Origin: Phycicoccus sonneratiae | GTDB lineage: Bacteria; Actinomycetota; Actinomycetes; Actinomycetales; Dermatophilaceae | Direction: 5' to 3' | Length of the DNA stretch: 64,000 bases | NCBI RefSeq assembly: GCF_016887965.1 | Contig: NZ_JAFDVD010000005.1 | Span: forward strand, 124,001-188,000 | In this document: in pieces, positions 51,872 through 59,907 of the stretch | Layout of the letters: each line of letters begins with the position of its first letter | Numbering within the stretch: the first letter of the stretch is position 1 | The notes under the pieces: model-generated | Database searches by the model: none | What the model was told of the DNA's origin: nothing | Seen by the model: only the letters and a program-made list of their open reading frames with translations | Translations under genes and position numbers: made by a program

Positions 51872-52636
51872 GTGGGCTCCGGCCCCGGGGAGCACCTGCA
51901 CGTCGAGGGCGACAGCCCGCTCCACCGCCTCCCCGCCCACGTCAAGCTCATCGGGCTCGTCGCGTTCGTGCTCGCCGTCGTCGCGGTGCCGTCGCCCGCG
52001 CACGCCGTCCTCGCCGGTCTGCTCCTCCTCGCCGTGGGGCTCGTCCTCGCCACCCGGGTCCCCGCCCGGCACGTCCTGCCCCGGCTGGCCGTCGAGACGC
52101 CCTTCGCCGTCTTCGCCCTCGTCCTGCCGTTCGTCGCCGTCGGCCCGCAGGTCGAGCTCGGGCCGGTCTCGGTGTCGCAGACCGGGCTCACCGCGGCCGT
52201 CGCCCTGCTCCTCAAGGGCACGACGGGCGTGCTCGCGGCGGTCGCCTTCGCCGTCACCACCCGCCCCCGCGACCTCGTCCGCGCCCTGCAGCACCTGCGC
52301 GTCCCCGACCCGCTCGTGCTCATCGCGTCCTTCATGGTCCGCTACGTCGACGTCGTCGCCGACCAGCTGCGCCGGATGAAGGTGGCCCGCGCCTCCCGCG
52401 GCTTCAGCGCCCGGTCGGTGCGGGCCTGGCCGGTGCTCGCCGCCGGGACCGGGGCCCTCTTCATCCGCAGCTACGAGCGCGGCGAGCGGGTCCACCTCGC
52501 AATGGTCAGCCGCGGCTGGACCGGCCGGATGCCGATGACCTCCCCCCTCACCGCCACGCGCCGCGACTGGGCGACCGGCCTCGCTCCGGCCCTCGTCGCG
52601 GCGGTCGCGGCGGCCACCGTGATGATGGTGCCGTGA
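51872..52636 (+). CDS. cbiQ: CbiQ, ECF transporter transmembrane coupling protein
   Basis: A 254-residue T-component with about five membrane segments. It starts SPLHRLPAHVKLIGLVAFVL. The coupling helices carry MKVARASRGFS and the second A-R-G-like motif LAMVSRGWTGRM, which bind the ATPase. The GTG follows the CbiN stop directly, and the stop overlaps cbiO by four bases. Confidence 0.92.
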   Translation: MGSGPGEHLHVEGDSPLHRLPAHVKLIGLVAFVLAVVAVPSPAHAVLAGLLLLAVGLVLATRVPARHVLPRLAVETPFAVFALVLPFVAVGPQVELGPVSVSQTGLTAAVALLLKGTTGVLAAVAFAVTTRPRDLVRALQHLRVPDPLVLIASFMVRYVDVVADQLRRMKVARASRGFSARSVRAWPVLAAGTGALFIRSYERGERVHLAMVSRGWTGRMPMTSPLTATRRDWATGLAPALVAAVAAATVMMVP

Positions 52637-53364
52637 CCACCCCCGTCCTCGACCTGCGCGGTGTCGCCTACGCCTACCCCGGCGGCCACCAGGCCCTCTT
52701 CGGTGTCGACCTGCACGTCCACCCGGGGGAGCGGGTCGCGCTGCTCGGGCCCAACGGGGCCGGCAAGACGACGCTCGTGCTCCACCTCAACGGTGTCCTC
52801 ACGCCCGGCCGGGGCTCGGTGACGGTCTCCGGCCTGCCGGTCACCGAGGAGAACCTCCTCGAGGTCCGCCGGCGGGTGGGCATCGTCTTCCAGGACCCCG
52901 ACGACCAGCTCTTCATGCCGACCGTCCGCGACGACGTCGCCTTCGGACCGGCCAACCTCGGCCTGCGCGGCGCCGAGCTCGACGCGCGGGTGCACGAGGC
53001 GCTGTCCGCCGTCGGGGTCGACGACCTCGCCGACCGGGCGCCGCACCACCTGTCCTTCGGCCAGCGCCGCCGGGTGGCCATCGCCACCGTGCTCGCGATG
53101 CGCCCGGAGATCCTCGTCCTCGACGAGCCGTCGTCGAACCTCGACCCGGCCTCCCGGCGCGAGCTCGCCGACATCCTCCGCGGCCTCGACGTGACGATCC
53201 TCATGGTCACCCACGACCTGCCCTACGCGGTCGAGCTCTGCGAGCGCTCGGTCGTGCTCTCCGAGGGCACGGTCGTCGCCGACGGCGGCACCCGGGCGCT
53301 GCTCGCCGACGGCGACCTCATGGCCCGCCACCGCCTCGAGCTGCCCGTGGGGTTCTCGATCTAG
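52633..53364 (+). CDS. cbiO: CbiO, ECF transporter ATPase
   Basis: A 243-residue ATPase for the Co/Ni uptake complex. Walker A is GPNGAGKTT (39-47). The Q-loop is FQDPDDQLFMPTVRDDVAFG, typical of ECF ATPases, followed by the signature LSFGQRRRVAIATVLAM, Walker B EILVLDEPSSNLD and H-loop MVTHDLPYAVEL. One ATPase gene is present, so it should form a homodimer. Confidence 0.94.
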   Translation: MTTPVLDLRGVAYAYPGGHQALFGVDLHVHPGERVALLGPNGAGKTTLVLHLNGVLTPGRGSVTVSGLPVTEENLLEVRRRVGIVFQDPDDQLFMPTVRDDVAFGPANLGLRGAELDARVHEALSAVGVDDLADRAPHHLSFGQRRRVAIATVLAMRPEILVLDEPSSNLDPASRRELADILRGLDVTILMVTHDLPYAVELCERSVVLSEGTVVADGGTRALLADGDLMARHRLELPVGFSI

Positions 53365-53367
53365 GGT
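53362..53367 (+). promoter_or_regulatory. -10 box of the DUF3090 gene, overlapping the cbiO stop
   Basis: TAGGGT begins with the cbiO stop codon and ends six bases before the DUF3090 ATG at 53374. It restores separate control of the housekeeping genes downstream of the inserted transporter operon. Confidence 0.48.
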
Positions 53368-53373
53368 GGAGCC

Positions 53374-53883
53374 ATGCCAGCCACCGTCTTCGACCCGCCG
53401 GAGCGCTTCGTCGCCGGCACCGTGGGCCCGCCGGGCGGCCGCACGTTCTTCCTCCAGGCGAGCGGCGGCGGCCGCGTCGTCTCGGTGTCGCTCGAGAAGG
53501 TGCAGGTGAGCGTGCTCGCCGACCGGGTCAACGACCTCCTCGACGCGCACGCCGAGGGCACGGCCACCGAGCCGCTCGGCGACGGCGACACCGGCCCGCT
53601 GACCACCCCGATCGAGGACGAGTTCCGCGTCGACACCCTCAGCCTCGCGTGGGACCCGGAGCGCCTCGTGCTGGCCATCGAGTGCCACGACCAGGACCCC
53701 GAGGAGGCCGACGAGAGCACTGTGAGCACCCTGCGCGTCGTCCTCGACCCCGCGGCCGCCCGCGCCTTCGCCCGGCGCTGCGGCAAGGTCGTCTCCGCCG
53801 GTCGCCCGGCGTGCCCCTTCTGCGGCCAGCCGCTCGACCCCACCGGCCACATCTGCCCCCGTGCCAACGGATATCGGCGCTGA
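53374..53883 (+). CDS. DUF3090 (YjbF-like) zinc-site protein
   Basis: A 169-residue DUF3090 protein. Its body includes TVGPPGGRTFFLQASGGGRV and VSLEKVQVSVLADRV. The C-terminus has a zinc-type site C147-x2-C150 ... H159-x-C161 in CPFCGQPLDPTGHICPR. The function is unknown, though the gene is nearly always beside the SCO1664-type and phosphatase genes in Actinobacteria. Its last 23 bases overlap the next gene. Confidence 0.88.
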   Translation: MPATVFDPPERFVAGTVGPPGGRTFFLQASGGGRVVSVSLEKVQVSVLADRVNDLLDAHAEGTATEPLGDGDTGPLTTPIEDEFRVDTLSLAWDPERLVLAIECHDQDPEEADESTVSTLRVVLDPAAARAFARRCGKVVSAGRPACPFCGQPLDPTGHICPRANGYRR

Positions 53884-54661
53884 GCTCGAGGAGCTGCTGA
53901 CCCGGGGGGACCTCACGCCCGTCGGGCGCATCTCGGGGTCCTCCAACGGGGCGTTGCTCTGCCTCGTGGGCGACCCCGCCGACGAGGTGCTCGTCATCCA
54001 CAAGCCGGAGGCCACCGAGCGCCGGCTCTGGGACTACCCCGACGGCACGCTCGTCGCGCGCGAGCGGGCCGCCTGGCTGGTCAGCGAGGCCGGCGGCTTC
54101 GGCGTCGTGCCCCCCACGGTGCTGCGCGACGGACCGCTGGGGCCGGGGTCGGTGCAGCTGTGGGTCGGCCCGACGACGGGGGAGCAGGAGCCGCTCGTCG
54201 ACGTCGTCGGGCCCGGCGAGGTGCCGGAGGGCTGGCACGTCGTCCTCGAGGGGGAGTCGACCCTCGGGCAGCCGGTCGTCGTCGCGCACTGCGGCGAGCC
54301 GGCGCTGCGCACCGTCGCCGTCCTCGACGCCGCCCTCAACAACTCCGACCGCAAGGGCAGCCACCTGCTCCGCGACGGCGACGTCGTGCGCGGCTGCGAC
54401 CACGGAGTGAGCCTCGGCGTCGAGCCCAAGCTGCGGACCGTCCTCTGGGGCTGGGCCGGCGAGCGGATCCCCGAGGCCGACCTCGCGCGCCTCGAGCGGC
54501 TCGCGCAGGCCCTCGACGGGTCGCTCGGCGAGGCGCTGGCGCCGCTGCTCACCGTCGAGGAGGTCGACGCGCTCGTCCACCGGGTGGGGTCGCTGCTGCG
54601 CTGGCCGCACCACCCCGTGCCCCGCGGGGACTGGCCGGCCATCCCGTGGCCGGCGCTGTGA
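53861..54661 (+). CDS. SCO1664-family kinase-fold protein (PI-kinase/HipA-like)
   Basis: A 266-residue protein with a PI3/4-kinase/HipA-like fold. A glycine-poor N-lobe holds VGRISGSSNGALLCLV. The catalytic loop is LDAALNNSDRKGSHLL (D-x-x-x-N-N-S-D-R) and the metal motif is GCDHGVSLGVEPKLR. The mates DUF3090 and mshC are conserved partners in mycobacteria (Rv2134c, Rv2133c, Rv2130c, from memory). Function unknown. It overlaps DUF3090 by 23 bases and starts at GTG. Confidence 0.85.
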   Translation: MPTDIGAELEELLTRGDLTPVGRISGSSNGALLCLVGDPADEVLVIHKPEATERRLWDYPDGTLVARERAAWLVSEAGGFGVVPPTVLRDGPLGPGSVQLWVGPTTGEQEPLVDVVGPGEVPEGWHVVLEGESTLGQPVVVAHCGEPALRTVAVLDAALNNSDRKGSHLLRDGDVVRGCDHGVSLGVEPKLRTVLWGWAGERIPEADLARLERLAQALDGSLGEALAPLLTVEEVDALVHRVGSLLRWPHHPVPRGDWPAIPWPAL

Positions 54662-54684: not shown

Positions 54685-55944
54685 GTGAAGTCGTGGCCCA
54701 CGCCGTCCGTCCCCGCCGTCCCCGGTCACGGAGAGCCCCTCCGGCTCCACGACACCAGCCGTGACGCGGTCGTCCCCCTCGACGCCGGCGACGTCGCCCG
54801 CATCTACGTCTGCGGCATCACCCCGTACGACGCCACGCACCTCGGCCACGCCGCCACGTACGTCACCTTCGACCTCGTCGTCCGCGCGCTGCTCGACACC
54901 GGGCGGCGGGTCGAGTACGTGCAGAACGTCACCGACGTCGACGACCCGCTGCTCGAGCGGGCGGCGCGCGACGGCCGCGACTGGCGCGAGCTCGCGACGG
55001 CCGAGATCGAGCTCTTCCGCGAGGACATGACCGCCCTCGGTGTCATCCCTCCGGACGAGTACCGGGGCGTCGTCGAGTCGATGGACGAGATCGTCGACGC
55101 CGTGCGCCGACTCGTGTCGTCCGGTGCGGCGTACCGGGTCCCGGTGCCCGAGGGCGAGGGCGAGGGCCCCGGTGATGACGTCTACCTCGACCTCGCGCAG
55201 ACGCCCGCGTTCGGCGAGGTCTCGCACTGGTCCCGCGAGCAGATGATGTCGGTCTTCGCCGACCGCGGGGGCGACCCCGACCGCGCCGGCAAGCGCGACC
55301 CGCTCGACCCGCTGCTCTGGCGCGGGGCGCGTGACGGCGAGCCGTCGTGGGACGACGACGTGCTCGGCGCCGGCCGCCCCGGGTGGCACATCGAGTGCAC
55401 CGCCATCTCGCTGGCCCACCTCGGCCACCCCTTCGACCTCAAGGGCGGGGGCAGCGACCTCGTCTTCCCGCACCACGAGATGAGTGCCGTCCAGGCCACC
55501 GCCCTCACCGGTGGGGAGGTGTTCGCCCGCCTCTACGTCCACCAGGCGATGGTCGGGTTCCAGGGCGAGAAGATGAGCAAGTCCAAGGGCAACCTCGTGC
55601 TCGTCTCGCGCCTGCGCGCCGACGGGGTCGACCCCATGGCCATCCGCCTCGTCCTCCTCGCCCAGCACTACCGCACCGAGTGGGAGTACACCGACTCCCT
55701 TCTCGCCGAGGCGCAGTCGCGGCTCGACCGGTGGCGCGAGGCGCTGTCGACCAACGGCGGGGTCGACGCCACCGACACGGTGGCCGCCGTCCGGTCCGCG
55801 GTCGCCGACGACCTCTCGACGCTGCGGGCGCTCGAGGCCGTCGACGCCTGGTGCGAGCGGACCCTCGCGGGCGAGGGCACGGACGCCGCGGCCCCCGGGG
55901 TCCTGGCCCGCACCCTCGACGCGGTCCTCGGCGTGCGCCTCTGA
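54685..55944 (+). CDS. mshC: MshC, cysteine ligase of mycothiol synthesis
   Basis: A 419-residue CysS paralogue that joins cysteine to glucosaminyl-inositol in mycothiol synthesis, an actinobacterial thiol pathway. The HIGH motif is THLGHAATY with the zinc Cys C43 (YVCGITPYDATHLGH). The KMSKS motif is EKMSKSKGN, and zinc ligands are in GWHIECTAISL and VFPHHEMSA. Compared with cysteinyl-tRNA synthetase it lacks the anticodon-binding C-terminal extension, as MshC does. Confidence 0.95.
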   Translation: MKSWPTPSVPAVPGHGEPLRLHDTSRDAVVPLDAGDVARIYVCGITPYDATHLGHAATYVTFDLVVRALLDTGRRVEYVQNVTDVDDPLLERAARDGRDWRELATAEIELFREDMTALGVIPPDEYRGVVESMDEIVDAVRRLVSSGAAYRVPVPEGEGEGPGDDVYLDLAQTPAFGEVSHWSREQMMSVFADRGGDPDRAGKRDPLDPLLWRGARDGEPSWDDDVLGAGRPGWHIECTAISLAHLGHPFDLKGGGSDLVFPHHEMSAVQATALTGGEVFARLYVHQAMVGFQGEKMSKSKGNLVLVSRLRADGVDPMAIRLVLLAQHYRTEWEYTDSLLAEAQSRLDRWREALSTNGGVDATDTVAAVRSAVADDLSTLRALEAVDAWCERTLAGEGTDAAAPGVLARTLDAVLGVRL

Positions 55945-55973: not shown

Positions 55974-56771
55974 ATGCTGCCGCTCCTGGGGCCGGTCCCC
56001 ACCCACGACGCCTTCGTGGCGCTCGGTGCCGTCGTGGCGGCCGGGGTCTTCGTCCTCGAGGCCCGGCGGCGCGGGCACACCGACGAGCGGCTCTACGTCG
56101 TCGTCACGGCGGCCCTCGTCGGCGGGGCGCTGCTCATGCGGCTCGGGACGTGGCTGCAGCACCTCGACCTGCGCGCCAACGCGACCCTCGTCGAGCAGTG
56201 GGCCTATGGCAACCGGAGCATCCTCGGCGGCCTCGTCGGGGCCTGGCTCGGGGTGCACGTCGGGAAGCGGCTCAGCGGCTACCGGCTGCGCACCGGCGAC
56301 CTCTTCGCCGCGGCGGTCGCCCTCGGCATGGCCGTGGGCCGGGTCGGCTGCCTGCTCACCGAACGCCCCGGGACGCCCACCGGCCTCCCGTGGGGCCTGC
56401 GGCTCGACGCCGGGGCGGCCGAGCGGCTCGGCGTGCCGGCGGGCGTGCCGCTCCATCCCTCGTTCCTCTACGAGATCGGCTTCCACGTGGTCGTGTTCGC
56501 GCTCATCTGGGGCTGGCTCCGGTTCCGGCCCACGCCGCCCGGCGAGCTGTTCGTCTGGTGGGTCGCCGCGTACGGCGTCTTCCGGTTCCTCGTCGAGGAG
56601 GTCCGCGGCAACGAGGTGGTCTGGAACGGGCTCACCCGACCCCAGCTGTTCCTCGCCGTCACCGTGCCGCTGGTGCTGCTGCGCATCGGGCTGCAGGTGC
56701 GGCGCGGCGCGTACGCCGGCGTCTTCGGGGGTCCGCCGCGCGCCACCGCCGACGTGGGGGTCGGCGCGTGA
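55974..56771 (+). CDS. Lgt-like membrane protein with altered active site
   Basis: A 265-residue protein with about seven membrane segments and the Lgt fold: RSILGGLVGAWLG, GRVGCLLTERPG and PSFLYEI match the diacylglyceryl-transferase frame. In true Lgt the signature GRxGN carries an essential Asn; here it is C126. The His of HGGLIG is replaced (ILGGLVG at 83-89). R123 and E130 remain. It is therefore probably not the housekeeping lipoprotein enzyme. The stop overlaps the radical SAM gene by four bases. A CATGCT box ends seven bases before the ATG chosen. Confidence 0.82.
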   Translation: MLPLLGPVPTHDAFVALGAVVAAGVFVLEARRRGHTDERLYVVVTAALVGGALLMRLGTWLQHLDLRANATLVEQWAYGNRSILGGLVGAWLGVHVGKRLSGYRLRTGDLFAAAVALGMAVGRVGCLLTERPGTPTGLPWGLRLDAGAAERLGVPAGVPLHPSFLYEIGFHVVVFALIWGWLRFRPTPPGELFVWWVAAYGVFRFLVEEVRGNEVVWNGLTRPQLFLAVTVPLVLLRIGLQVRRGAYAGVFGGPPRATADVGVGA

Positions 56772-58360
56772 GCACCGCGGTCCGGGGGGCGGGGATGCCG
56801 CTGCGCGGCGACCGGATCCACCGCTACGTCAACGCCTTCTGCCCGCTGTGCCACGAGGAGCGCCCCGACCGACCGCTCGAGGAGGTCGTGCGGCTGTCCG
56901 GGTGGCTCGTCGAGCGGGGCGGACGGATCTGGTTGGAGCGCGGGTGCACCCGGCACGGGCTCGTCCGCACGATGTACGACGAGTCGCCGCAGATCCTGCG
57001 CTACCTCGAGGAGTGGACGGCGCCGACGAAGGTGCACGCGCCCGACGTGCCGGGCAACTTCGCACCGGTGCCGGCCGCGTACGCCGACGGGCTGCCCGAG
57101 ATGCAGAGCCAGCACACGTGCATCCTCCTCGAGGACCTGCTCGACCACTGCAACCTCAAGTGCCCGACCTGCTTCGCGGCCTCGGCTCCGGCCCTCGCGT
57201 CGGTGGCGCCCCTCGCCGAGGTGCTCGCGTCGGTCGACGCCCGGCTGGAGCGCGAGAACGGCCGGCTCGACGTCCTCATGCTCAGCGGCGGCGAACCCAC
57301 CCTCTACCCGCACCTCGCGGAGCTGCTCGACGAGGTGGCCGCCCGGCCCGTGGTGCGGGTGCTCGTCAACACCAACGGGCTCCTCGTCGCGCAGGACGAC
57401 GAGCTCCTGGCCCTGCTGCGGCGGCACCGCGAGCGGGTCGAGGTCTACCTGCAGTACGACGGCGAGTCCGCGCAGACCTCGGCGCACCACCGCGGCGCCG
57501 ACCTGCGGCGCATCAAGGACCATGCGCTGCAGCGCCTCTCGGAGGCCGAGATCTTCACGACGCTGACGATGACCGCCGCGCTCGGTGTCAACGACGGGGA
57601 GATCGGCGCCGTCATCGACCGGGCGATGGCCACGCCCTACGTCGGGGGCGTGAGCATCCAGCCGGTGTTCGGATCGGGCCGCAGCACCGGCATCGACCCG
57701 ATCGACCGGCTGACGCACACCGGGGTCCTGGCGCGCCTCGACGAGCAGACCCGGGGCCGCGTGACGTGGCGCGACCTCACCGCCCTGCCCTGCTCGCACC
57801 CGCACTGCTGCTCGGTCGGCTACCTGCTGCGCGACGACTCCGGCACCTGGGTCTCGCTCGTGTCGGTCATCGGCCACGAGCGGCTCAAGCAGTGGCTCGA
57901 CCTCGAGCCCGACCTGCTGGCCAACCGGATCGCCGACGACGCCATCCCCGAGAGGCTCCGCGGGGTCGTCAAGTCCTCCCTGCTCGACCTGCTCTCGGAG
58001 CAGTCCTCGCTCTCGCACCCCTCGATGGCCGACATCTGGCGCGATCTCTGCACCGCGTGCGACCTCGGCCTCGGGACGCTCGCCACCCTCGCGTCCTCCC
58101 GGCTGCCGGGGCGGCACGACCGGCTCCGGCGGCTGCTCGGCGAGCGCGTGCTGCGGGTCACCGTCAAGCCGTTCATGGACATGGACACGATGATCGAGGA
58201 GCGTCTCGTGCAGTGCTGCGTCCACGTCGCGACCGTCAACGAGGAGTCGCGCGACCACCAGTGCGCCCCGTTCTGCGCCGTGCAGGCGTGGGCGCCCTTG
58301 TCCCGCAGCCGGTTGTCCACCGCAACCGGCGCCCGTGAGCTACCGCTGGTGGCTCGGTGA
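56768..58360 (+). CDS. Cysteine-rich radical SAM enzyme, tetraether-synthase (Tes)-like
   Basis: 530 residues. The radical SAM core has C128-x3-C132-x2-C135 (CNLKCPTC) and SAM motif LSGGEPTLYP (172-181). An N-terminal CPLC (25-28) plus CTRH (60-63) could bind zinc or iron. Further cysteines sit at 342, 347, 348 (PCSHPHCC), 428, 431 (CTAC), 483, 484, 499 and 503, enough for auxiliary clusters. The layout resembles the archaeal Tes/MJ0619 group that couples lipid chains, known to use several Fe-S clusters. Lipid C-C coupling is inference. It is translationally coupled to the Lgt-like gene. Confidence 0.85.
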   Translation: MSTAVRGAGMPLRGDRIHRYVNAFCPLCHEERPDRPLEEVVRLSGWLVERGGRIWLERGCTRHGLVRTMYDESPQILRYLEEWTAPTKVHAPDVPGNFAPVPAAYADGLPEMQSQHTCILLEDLLDHCNLKCPTCFAASAPALASVAPLAEVLASVDARLERENGRLDVLMLSGGEPTLYPHLAELLDEVAARPVVRVLVNTNGLLVAQDDELLALLRRHRERVEVYLQYDGESAQTSAHHRGADLRRIKDHALQRLSEAEIFTTLTMTAALGVNDGEIGAVIDRAMATPYVGGVSIQPVFGSGRSTGIDPIDRLTHTGVLARLDEQTRGRVTWRDLTALPCSHPHCCSVGYLLRDDSGTWVSLVSVIGHERLKQWLDLEPDLLANRIADDAIPERLRGVVKSSLLDLLSEQSSLSHPSMADIWRDLCTACDLGLGTLATLASSRLPGRHDRLRRLLGERVLRVTVKPFMDMDTMIEERLVQCCVHVATVNEESRDHQCAPFCAVQAWAPLSRSRLSTATGARELPLVAR

Positions 58361-58677
58361 GCACCCCTGCGGCCGGCGACCCCCGGCAGGTCGAGCCACC
58401 CCGCCACGCGGTCGACCCTCCGGTGCGACCCCACGGCGGGCCCGACGACCCGCTCCGGCTCTGCGTGTTCGCCACCGTCTCGCTGCTCGGCTGGCTCCTC
58501 GGCCCGTTCGCGGTGCTCGTCTTCGCCGGGACGGGCGCGGCCGGCTACGTGTCGGCCCGGCGGGCCGGGCTGCTGCGGTCGCGGTGCAAGCTCGGTGACA
58601 CGCGGCTGGTCATCGCCTACCTCGTCGGCCTCGGTGCGCTGGCGGCGGTCTTCGCCGTCCGGACGGTCCTGCGATGA
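58357..58677 (+). CDS. Small membrane protein of the radical SAM cassette
   Basis: 106 residues: a Pro-rich cytosolic start, membrane segments at about 34-56 (LCVFATVSLLGWLLGPFAVL) and about 83-102 (LVIAYLVGLGALAAVFAV), and a basic loop between them (RRAGLLRSRCK). No family recognised. The GTG overlaps the radical SAM stop, and its own stop overlaps the next gene. Confidence 0.72.
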   Translation: MSTPAAGDPRQVEPPRHAVDPPVRPHGGPDDPLRLCVFATVSLLGWLLGPFAVLVFAGTGAAGYVSARRAGLLRSRCKLGDTRLVIAYLVGLGALAAVFAVRTVLR

Positions 58678-59024
58678 GCACCCCGCCGCTGCCGCCGCCC
58701 CCGCCGGCCGTTCCGCCGCGCGGCCCGGGCCTGTCGCGCACCGCGCGGTTCTGGATCGGTGTCGCCGTGGGGGTCTTCGGTGCTCCGGCCCTGACCATCG
58801 GGGTCGTCGTCCTGCTCTCCACGCTGACGAGCGGGTCGGGCAGCGCGGGCGACACCGCCCTACAGGCCCTCGTCGTCCTCGTGCCGGTGGCGCTCGTCGT
58901 CACCGGGCTCGTCGTCCGCGCCACGCGCTGGGTCGTCCTCGGCGCCCTCGCCGGCGGGTCCGTCGTCCTCATCGTCCTCGCGGGCGCGTGCGCGGCCATC
59001 CTCAAGGGGCTCGGGGCCTACTGA
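58674..59024 (+). CDS. Small membrane protein of the radical SAM cassette
   Basis: 116 residues: a Pro-rich start (PPLPPPPPAVPPRG) and three predicted membrane segments (about 26-48, 60-80 and 86-109). No family recognised. It is the last gene of the four-gene unit, followed by a GC-rich hairpin. Confidence 0.7.
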   Translation: MSTPPLPPPPPAVPPRGPGLSRTARFWIGVAVGVFGAPALTIGVVVLLSTLTSGSGSAGDTALQALVVLVPVALVVTGLVVRATRWVVLGALAGGSVVLIVLAGACAAILKGLGAY

Positions 59025-59049: not shown

Positions 59050-59907
59050 TCAGCCCGCGCCGGTGTCGTCGCTGCCGCGACGGCGCAGGTAGCGCTCGAA
59101 CTCCTTGGCGATGGCGTCGCCGCTCGCCTCGGGGAGCTCGGCGGTGTCCTGGGCCTCCTCGAGGCTCTCGACGTACTCGGCGACCTCGGTGTCGGACTCG
59201 GCGAGCTCGTTGATGCCGCGCTCCCAGGCGCGGGCGTCCTCGTCGAGCTCCCCGTGCTCGACGGGCGCGTCGAAGAGCTCCTCGAGCCGGCCGACGAGGG
59301 CCAGCGTGGCCTTCGGCGAGGGGGAGTGGCCGGCGTAGTGCGGAACCGCCGCCCAGCACGACACCGACGGGATGCCCACCTGGGACGCGGCGTCGGCGAG
59401 GACCCCGACGATGCCGGTCGGCCCCTCGTAGCCGCTCTGCTCGAGGTCGTGGCGGTGGCGGGTGTCCTCGCTGTCGGAGGTGGCGGTGACCGGGATCGGG
59501 CGGGAGTGGGCGACGTCGGCCATCAGCGCGCCGAGCGTGACGACCATCGAGACGTCGGTGGCCTCGGCGAGCTCCATGAGCTCGACGGCGAAGGCCCGCC
59601 AGCGGAAGGAGGGTTCGACCCCCTGGACGAGGACGACGTCGCGCCCGAGGGAGGTGTCGCGGGCGACGAGGACGCGCGTGGTGCGCCAGCTGATGCGGCG
59701 CTTGCCGCCCTCGGAGACCACCCGGGGCCGGTTGACCTGGAAGTCGTAGTAGTCCTCGGGGTCGAGCGCGGCGACGACGTCGGCGTCCCACACCTCGGCG
59801 AGGTGCTCGACGACGGCGCTGGCGGCCTCGCCCGCGTCGTTCCAGCCCTCGAAGGCGGCGATCATCACGGGGTCGCGCAGCTCGCCGATGTCCTCGAGCT
59901 CGATCAC
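59050..59907 (-). CDS. PAC2-family protein (proteasome-assembly chaperone fold)
   Basis: A 285-residue PAC2 protein: PVMIAAFEGWNDAGEAASAVV at the start, then ALDPEDYYDFQVNRPRV, ALMADVAHSRPIPVTATS and an acidic, helical C-terminal tail. Actinobacterial PAC2 proteins are conserved near metH (Rv2125 beside Rv2124c, from memory), with a debated link to the proteasome. The GTG is preceded by ggaggagga, and a TAGGGT box (complement of 59936-59941) lies further upstream. Confidence 0.9.
   Translation of the reverse strand: MIELEDIGELRDPVMIAAFEGWNDAGEAASAVVEHLAEVWDADVVAALDPEDYYDFQVNRPRVVSEGGKRRISWRTTRVLVARDTSLGRDVVLVQGVEPSFRWRAFAVELMELAEATDVSMVVTLGALMADVAHSRPIPVTATSDSEDTRHRHDLEQSGYEGPTGIVGVLADAASQVGIPSVSCWAAVPHYAGHSPSPKATLALVGRLEELFDAPVEHGELDEDARAWERGINELAESDTEVAEYVESLEEAQDTAELPEASGDAIAKEFERYLRRRGSDDTGAG

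Follow-up and report, generated by a model that had tools for sequence, protein, structure and literature searches.

What is the function of four overlapping genes in which a protein with the fold of Lgt, the prolipoprotein diacylglyceryl transferase, stands beside a radical S-adenosylmethionine (SAM) enzyme and two small membrane proteins? The block lies on the forward strand of a stretch of 64,000 nucleotides from Phycicoccus sonneratiae (contig NZ_JAFDVD010000005.1, positions 124,001 to 188,000), called the window here, whose numbering we use; the genome has a size of 4.1 Mb. At positions 55974-59024 the block holds lgtL, encoding an Lgt-fold membrane protein of 265 residues (LgtL, 55974..56771), the gene of a radical SAM protein of 530 residues with 16 cysteines (rSAM, 56768..58360), and orf3 (58357..58677) and orf4 (58674..59024), encoding small membrane proteins of 106 and 116 residues. 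Neighbouring genes overlap by four bases at each of the three joins (GTGA, GTGA and ATGA), and the open reading frames agree with the original prediction, which was made from the sequence alone and saw a candidate lipid-modification system in the block. In our view the block is an accessory cassette, conserved in Actinomycetota, which may modify a membrane glycerolipid. We hold this reading tentatively, at somewhat less than an even chance; it is based on the folds of rSAM and LgtL, which bind glycerophospholipids in characterised members, and on the strong linkage of the two genes. The cassette makes a good, testable candidate for a novel kind of membrane-lipid modification.

The cassette is a conserved unit and its genes are present or absent together. 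Two short peptide patterns were scanned over 84,980 species genomes, which gave 336 loci with rSAM relatives; the best 80 were kept and carry actinobacterial titles throughout. These 80 of the 336 supply most of the loci counted below, which gives close relatives too much weight in the locus counts. Seventy-five loci, including the window and with duplicates dropped, have at least 3 kb of flank on both sides of the rSAM gene. All of them (75/75) have an Lgt-like gene no more than 3.5 kb from the rSAM gene and on its strand; orf3 is present in 70/75 and orf4 in 71/75. The original prediction called for a search for the same gene order across Actinobacteria. The gene set is conserved as a unit, but the order is permuted: the Lgt-like gene is upstream of the rSAM gene in 37/75 loci and downstream in 38/75. 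In 58 related genomes rSAM, lgtL and orf3 co-occur in the same 10 (the window's own genome included, one of the 10 fragmentary) and in none of the 48 others; within the window's genus the cassette is found in 4/12 genomes. The Lgt-like orthologues in this set score at least 208 bits, as compared to at most 106 bits for every other Lgt match. Strong orf4 matches (E <1e-17, seven genomes) are always inside the cassette and the remaining ones are weak (3e-6 to 8e-4), so that the occurrence of orf4 elsewhere in these genomes was rejected. An even draw of 396 genomes from the phylum contains a close rSAM homologue in 10, own genome included, and an Lgt-like gene adjoins it in 10/10; in one of these draw genomes (G179) the Lgt-like gene shares a contig with the N-terminal half of rSAM. 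Distant homologues in the same draw have no Lgt-like neighbour in any of eight loci, the visible flank of each being about 1.5 kb or less.

The cassette looks like an accessory unit that would move as a whole, because its neighbours differ by genus and because it is present on two Mycobacterium plasmids. Genera with the cassette include Microbacterium, Nocardioides, Knoellia and Agromyces. In 9/80 loci, all assigned to Nocardioidaceae by their title or their label in the tree, the block has frr/cdsA upstream and rlmN downstream (identities by our own reading of the sequences), and in Microbacteriaceae it has other neighbours than in Nocardioidaceae or the window. The plasmid copies are at L136:6225-9545 (Mycobacterium avium, 344 kb, mobilizable by PLSDB typing) and L138:6358-9551 (M. 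branderi, 864 kb). In both, lgtL and rSAM are separated by two orf4-like genes, and orf3 was not found in either; the PLSDB gene table names the products radical SAM protein, prolipoprotein diacylglyceryl transferase family protein and hypothetical protein. A phage origin was rejected, as tblastn against 50,697 phage records gave no match and no relative was found in viral contigs. The complete genome of Phycicoccus sp. HDW14 has its rSAM gene in two frames (L067:10001-11577; same gene in G010), which reflects either a sequencing error or cassette decay. At L044:9264-9995 and L062:8846-9624 it is the Lgt-like gene that is divided between two overlapping frames. In G217 (L129 / L031 / L042) a single open frame of 900 codons holds the rSAM match as two parts separated by about 72 codons, as if there were an insertion near profile position 357.

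The rSAM protein matches Pfam Radical_SAM and Zn_ribbon_HMPTM. Its sole strong relative of solved structure, by sequence, is the tetraether lipid synthase Tes (also GDGT-MAS, MJ0619; PDB 7tol, E 4.5e-29, residues 8-504). Among NCBIfam models TrsS (NF045646) gives the highest score, 182.5 bits with a cut-off of 490, followed here by Tes (NF045702) with 139.9 bits and a cut-off of 450; both cut-offs are missed, and the comparison with TrsS itself is by score. The AlphaFold model, built with 31 sequences (24 from the family and 7 distant ones), has a mean predicted local distance difference test score (pLDDT) of 79.6 and a predicted template modelling score (pTM) of 0.85, with the SAM loop 128-143 below 50. 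Foldseek places the Tes structures 7tom and 7tol at ranks 1 and 2 with a query-normalised TM-score (TMq) of 0.71, the target-normalised score (TMt) for 7tom being 0.75 and the identity in the structural alignment 22%. The peptide maturase SkfB follows at rank 3 with TMq 0.33, and no non-Tes match exceeds 0.36 among the 50 matches listed. The whole four-domain Tes fold is predicted for rSAM.

We mapped the cofactor ligands of Tes, as given in PMC9433317, on 91 aligned rows including the window protein. The rubredoxin-like CxxC...CxxH site, C9-C12-C33-H36 in Tes, corresponds to C25, C28, C60 and H63 and is kept in 91/91, as are C128, C132 and C135 of the CX3CX2C motif (57149..57172, forward strand) that holds the SAM [4Fe-4S] cluster. 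Nine further cysteines are invariant in these rows: C118, C342, C347, C428, C431, C483, C484, C499 and C503. The family shares with Tes the C-terminal cysteines at the columns of C338, C455, C456 and C470; unlike Tes, it has C118, C342, C428, C431 and C499. In a tree of 41 rows (29 from the family) the cassette proteins form one clan with 100/100 support. The original prediction had called for such a tree; here the family groups firmly by itself and joins none whose function is known, and long branches leave its outer position uncertain. Two other assignments were considered for rSAM and dropped. Selenocysteine, which some TrsS members have, was one: the TGA flagged in G027 proved to be the usual stop codon at the end of that gene, and the window protein has no in-frame TGA. 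A defence system was the other, the PADLOC pVip model matching only residues 124-210 with 35 bits. Nor does the protein resemble a SPASM-type maturase of ribosomally synthesised and post-translationally modified peptides (RiPPs) closely; besides the low SkfB similarity, the NCBIfam skfB model gives 19.5 bits against a cut-off of 300.

More distant rSAM relatives help to place the family. Seven of them from actinobacteria (L033-L039), unclassified, keep the N-terminal [4Fe-4S] cluster in 7/7, unlike the cassette proteins; the relatives scanned score 314-355 bits against TrsS, also below the cut-off. C118, C342, C428 and C431 are common to these relatives (7/7) and the cassette family (91/91) and absent from MJ0619 Tes. 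C347 is likewise common to both groups, while C499 is confined to the cassette family as compared with the seven relatives and MJ0619. Outside the phylum, plasmid pPP1 of Persicobacter psychrovividus (Bacteroidota) has an Lgt-like frame overlapping a Tes/TrsS-type rSAM frame (L140:4238-6392); no orf3 or orf4 was found at this locus. The Persicobacter protein keeps the N-terminal cluster cysteines and the pairing is a single case, so we treat it as a parallel and not as a member of the family. Its tree position beside the family (89/85, very long branches) was not relied on.

LgtL of the window scores 98.6 bits with Pfam LGT (cut-off 24.9). With TIGR00544 it reaches 64.8 bits, short of the cut-off of 118.9; this comparison is given for the window protein. 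The lgt model matches all 16 diverse LgtL members scanned, with E up to 0.1. Mapping 91 rows to E. coli Lgt, R143 is kept in 91/91 and E202, Y235, R239, E243 and R246 in 89/91 each, the remaining two being gaps. In the window protein the altered site of LgtL comprises R123, C126, E167, Y200, R204, E208 and R211. In E. coli Lgt the network round phosphatidylglycerol consists of R143, N146, S198, E202, Y235, R239 and R246 (PMC8689077), and the residues kept in LgtL have been placed at or near the phosphatidylglycerol site (PMC4728403; PMC8689077). Judged from the alignment, LgtL retains most, not all, of this phospholipid network. It is therefore plausible, as originally predicted, that LgtL places or holds a glycerolipid. 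A normal Lgt is encoded elsewhere on the same contig (214 bits). Note that H103 is found in 0/91 LgtL rows and that the column is not His in the normal Lgt of this genome either; the loss of H103 was for that reason dropped as proof that LgtL is no Lgt, and the case has to be made with N146 and Y26. The E151 column is ambiguous, aligning to a variable residue one position off the invariant E130, and was counted neither way.

The two small membrane proteins had been called unrecognised. Small and membrane-bound they appear to be, and Pfam gives nothing at or above cut-off for the window copies, but both turn out to be conserved families. C36 and C77 of Orf3 are kept in 88/88 rows. Its AlphaFold model, with a pTM of only 0.38, has three helices (32-48, 50-69 and 82-105) and a break at Gly49-Pro50. 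Relatives of Orf3 show scattered weak Pfam matches, the best being FA_desaturase at 2e-4 in one of 13. Orf4 has a variable Pro/Gly-rich N-terminus, three hydrophobic stretches and a conserved C-terminal end. Among 98 copies with E below 1e-8, 92 have a C-terminal Cys; Gly is at position -2 in 90/92, and the last Arg/Lys is 20-21 residues before the Cys in 87/92. In the window this is Cys106 of LAGAC (codon 58989..58991, forward strand), a candidate acceptor. Two or three orf4 hits that overlap by less than half are found in 12/75 loci. An assignment of Orf4 to DUF6264 was not relied on, since it appeared in 1/15 members at E 0.0007 and in 0/7 re-scanned.

How could such proteins act together on a lipid? 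The rSAM protein would work at the cytoplasmic face, taking a hydrogen from an unactivated lipid carbon and thereby making a new C-C or C-S bond. LgtL would bind a phosphatidylglycerol-like lipid and move or present its diacylglyceryl part at the outer face. Modification would precede transfer, given the cytoplasmic location expected for rSAM and the activity of Lgt at the outer face. Orf3 may dock or support rSAM, its cysteines lying near the cytoplasmic face by our reading of the positive-inside rule. The Gly-x-Cys of Orf4, put at the outer face by its Arg-to-Cys spacing, would be the best candidate acceptor, as the cysteine statistics suggest. In its most specific form, a third Tes/TrsS branch would change the tail of a phospholipid and a re-tooled Lgt would pass this diacylglyceryl group on to the Gly-x-Cys of Orf4; that scheme we consider distinctly improbable. 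For the broader reading, a cassette that modifies a membrane glycerolipid, speak the Lgt-like gene beside rSAM in all well-flanked loci and in all ten genomes of the phylum draw that have a close rSAM homologue, the joint presence or absence in the 58 genomes, and Tes as the only good match among the 50 Foldseek matches listed. The kept phospholipid-site residues of LgtL, the normal Lgt elsewhere in the genome, the single Persicobacter case and the Orf4 cysteine statistics point the same way.

Several observations weigh against a lipid-modifying cassette of this kind. The cysteines that bind the N-terminal [4Fe-4S] cluster of Tes (C73, C77 and C80) are Cys in 0/91 rows at each column, the window having V101, D107 and P110 there. 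Met439 of Tes is replaced by Lys in 91/91 and Tyr459 by Val in 90/91 and Ala in 1/91, though the Tes mutants M439A, Y459F and Y459L are still active (PMC9433317). The description of the protein as a Tes-type radical SAM enzyme therefore holds for the whole fold, but the family cut-off is missed, the N-terminal cluster ligands are gone and TrsS scores higher; likewise, what stands of the predicted lipid-modification system is a conserved unit of Lgt fold and Tes fold, with an rSAM that is not Tes-type by cut-off or cluster ligands. In LgtL, N146 is Cys in 91/91 and Y26 has no counterpart in the 91 rows, whereas the normal Lgt of this genome keeps both. In E. coli Lgt N146A abolishes activity completely (PMC8689077), Y26 mutants are inactive and E202Q is still active (PMC4728403); of Y26, R143, N146 and R239, all needed there, LgtL keeps R143 and R239 only. 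The small proteins went undetected in 5/75 (orf3) and 4/75 (orf4) loci, so neither looks indispensable, and a strong orf4 match is found in just 7 of the 10 cassette genomes among the 58. The Cys is missing from 6/98 Orf4 copies. These Cys-less proteins are extra copies (L048, L049, L054, L057, L060 and L065, from Nocardioides and related loci), and each locus also holds a copy with the Cys. Canonical bacterial lipoproteins carry the lipobox [LVI][ASTVI][GAS]C, which is found in 0/92 of the Cys-bearing copies. The topology of both small proteins is drawn from hydropathy and the low-pTM model. Finally, three plasmid-borne distant rSAM genes, on a mycobacterial plasmid and on haloarchaeal plasmids, are adjoined on their 3' side by a methyltransferase gene (L139:3181-6327, L141:1556-5171 and L142:1541-5171) and are near genes for disulfide oxidoreductase/CcdA or peroxiredoxin/redoxin and DUF547; their company is one of thiol-redox genes and not of lipid genes. 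The methyltransferase is annotated in these three only and was read by eye in L035, L036 and L037; we take the three plasmid loci as another uncharacterised system.

Those plasmid neighbourhoods, together with the extra cysteines C118, C342, C428 and C431 that cassette rSAMs share with seven distant relatives, are the reason to keep a reading in which the chemistry is done on a small thiol or metalloid compound instead of a lipid, as may be the case in the methyltransferase-linked relatives, with LgtL transferring that group or exporting the product. This seems quite unlikely to us, as no gene family other than those of the cassette is seen in over 14/96 clustered loci: the commonest is an MFS transporter (14/96), and the rRNA methylase RlmN is found in 13/96. 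The flanks were read by eye, and a rarer redox partner may exist. Protein substrates of modifying enzymes often have a variable start, a conserved motif and several copies, and Orf4, with its variable N-terminus, conserved C-terminal motif and multiple hits in 12 of the 75 loci, has such features. The rSAM protein could then be a maturase forming a cross-link or a thioether at a conserved Cys of Orf4 or Orf3, with LgtL as a scaffold. We rate a maturase as rather improbable, since the best fold is Tes, SkfB and other maturases reaching TMq of about 0.3, and since the near-invariant active-site residues of LgtL are unlike those of a mere scaffold.

If rSAM were instead a synthase of membrane-spanning lipids, similar to Tes or to the bacterial enzyme Mss and coupling two phospholipid tails, LgtL and the small proteins would only present lipids to it. 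The whole-length Tes fold fits this possibility, which remains unlikely in our judgement: the Tes score of 140 bits is below 450, and Met439, Tyr459 and the N-terminal ligands are lost, with the qualification that the mutants named above stay active. Membrane-spanning lipids are not known to have been reported from these genera, and none of the 20 titles listed in a literature search names them, which also counts against it. Mss, whose architecture is described as Tes-like (PMC13274423) and which would make the same type of product, has homologues in 17/146 Actinobacteriota metagenome-assembled genomes from the Black Sea (PMC11868695); here the likeness to Mss is one of description, not of compared sequences. 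Bacterial Tes homologues have been proposed for the synthesis of branched glycerol dialkyl glycerol tetraethers (PMC8941075); the same paper reports 456 bacterial homologues, and the term 'actinobacteri' is absent from its main text. Some organisms with such bacterial homologues are not known as producers of biphytanyl chains (PMC9433317). Could LgtL simply be a second prolipoprotein transferase in an incidental neighbourhood? Pfam LGT is well over its cut-off and the missing H103 proves nothing, but the TIGR00544 cut-off is missed, N146 and Y26 are lost while the normal Lgt keeps them, and the rSAM gene is an almost constant neighbour; we find this very improbable. In the available parts of the open-licence literature we found no description of this gene set, in agreement with the original statement that no described pathway of this composition was known from Actinobacteria; subscription papers are largely outside that literature, so absence from print is not established. 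PMC7641849 was rejected as a description of the gene set, the two key terms standing in unrelated places in its available text.

Regarding the surroundings of the cassette in the window, the block lies between mshC (54685-55944; TIGR03447, 627 bits with a cut-off of 485) and a PAC2 gene on the opposite strand (59050-59907; 210 bits), which are the two neighbours originally named. Upstream of mshC, at 51872-54661, are cobalt-type transporter genes (CbiQ-like and ATP-binding cassette), a DUF3090 protein and an SCO1664 family protein.

The results tie one branch of the Tes/TrsS family to a re-tooled Lgt in every well-flanked locus, and mostly to two small membrane proteins. Such constant partners leave phosphatidylglycerol-like lipids and a small number of named cysteines as the places to look for a substrate. 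The genera named above can be cultivated, and carriers of the cassette can be set against congeners that lack it, as in the window's genus, for a natural comparison. Unusual lipids as products, if that is what they are, could also be relevant to biomarkers and membrane physiology. If Orf4 is the acceptor, it would be a tail-modified protein with a C-terminal lipid anchor, unlike known lipoproteins, and the cassette would represent an unrecognised lipid pathway of actinobacteria.

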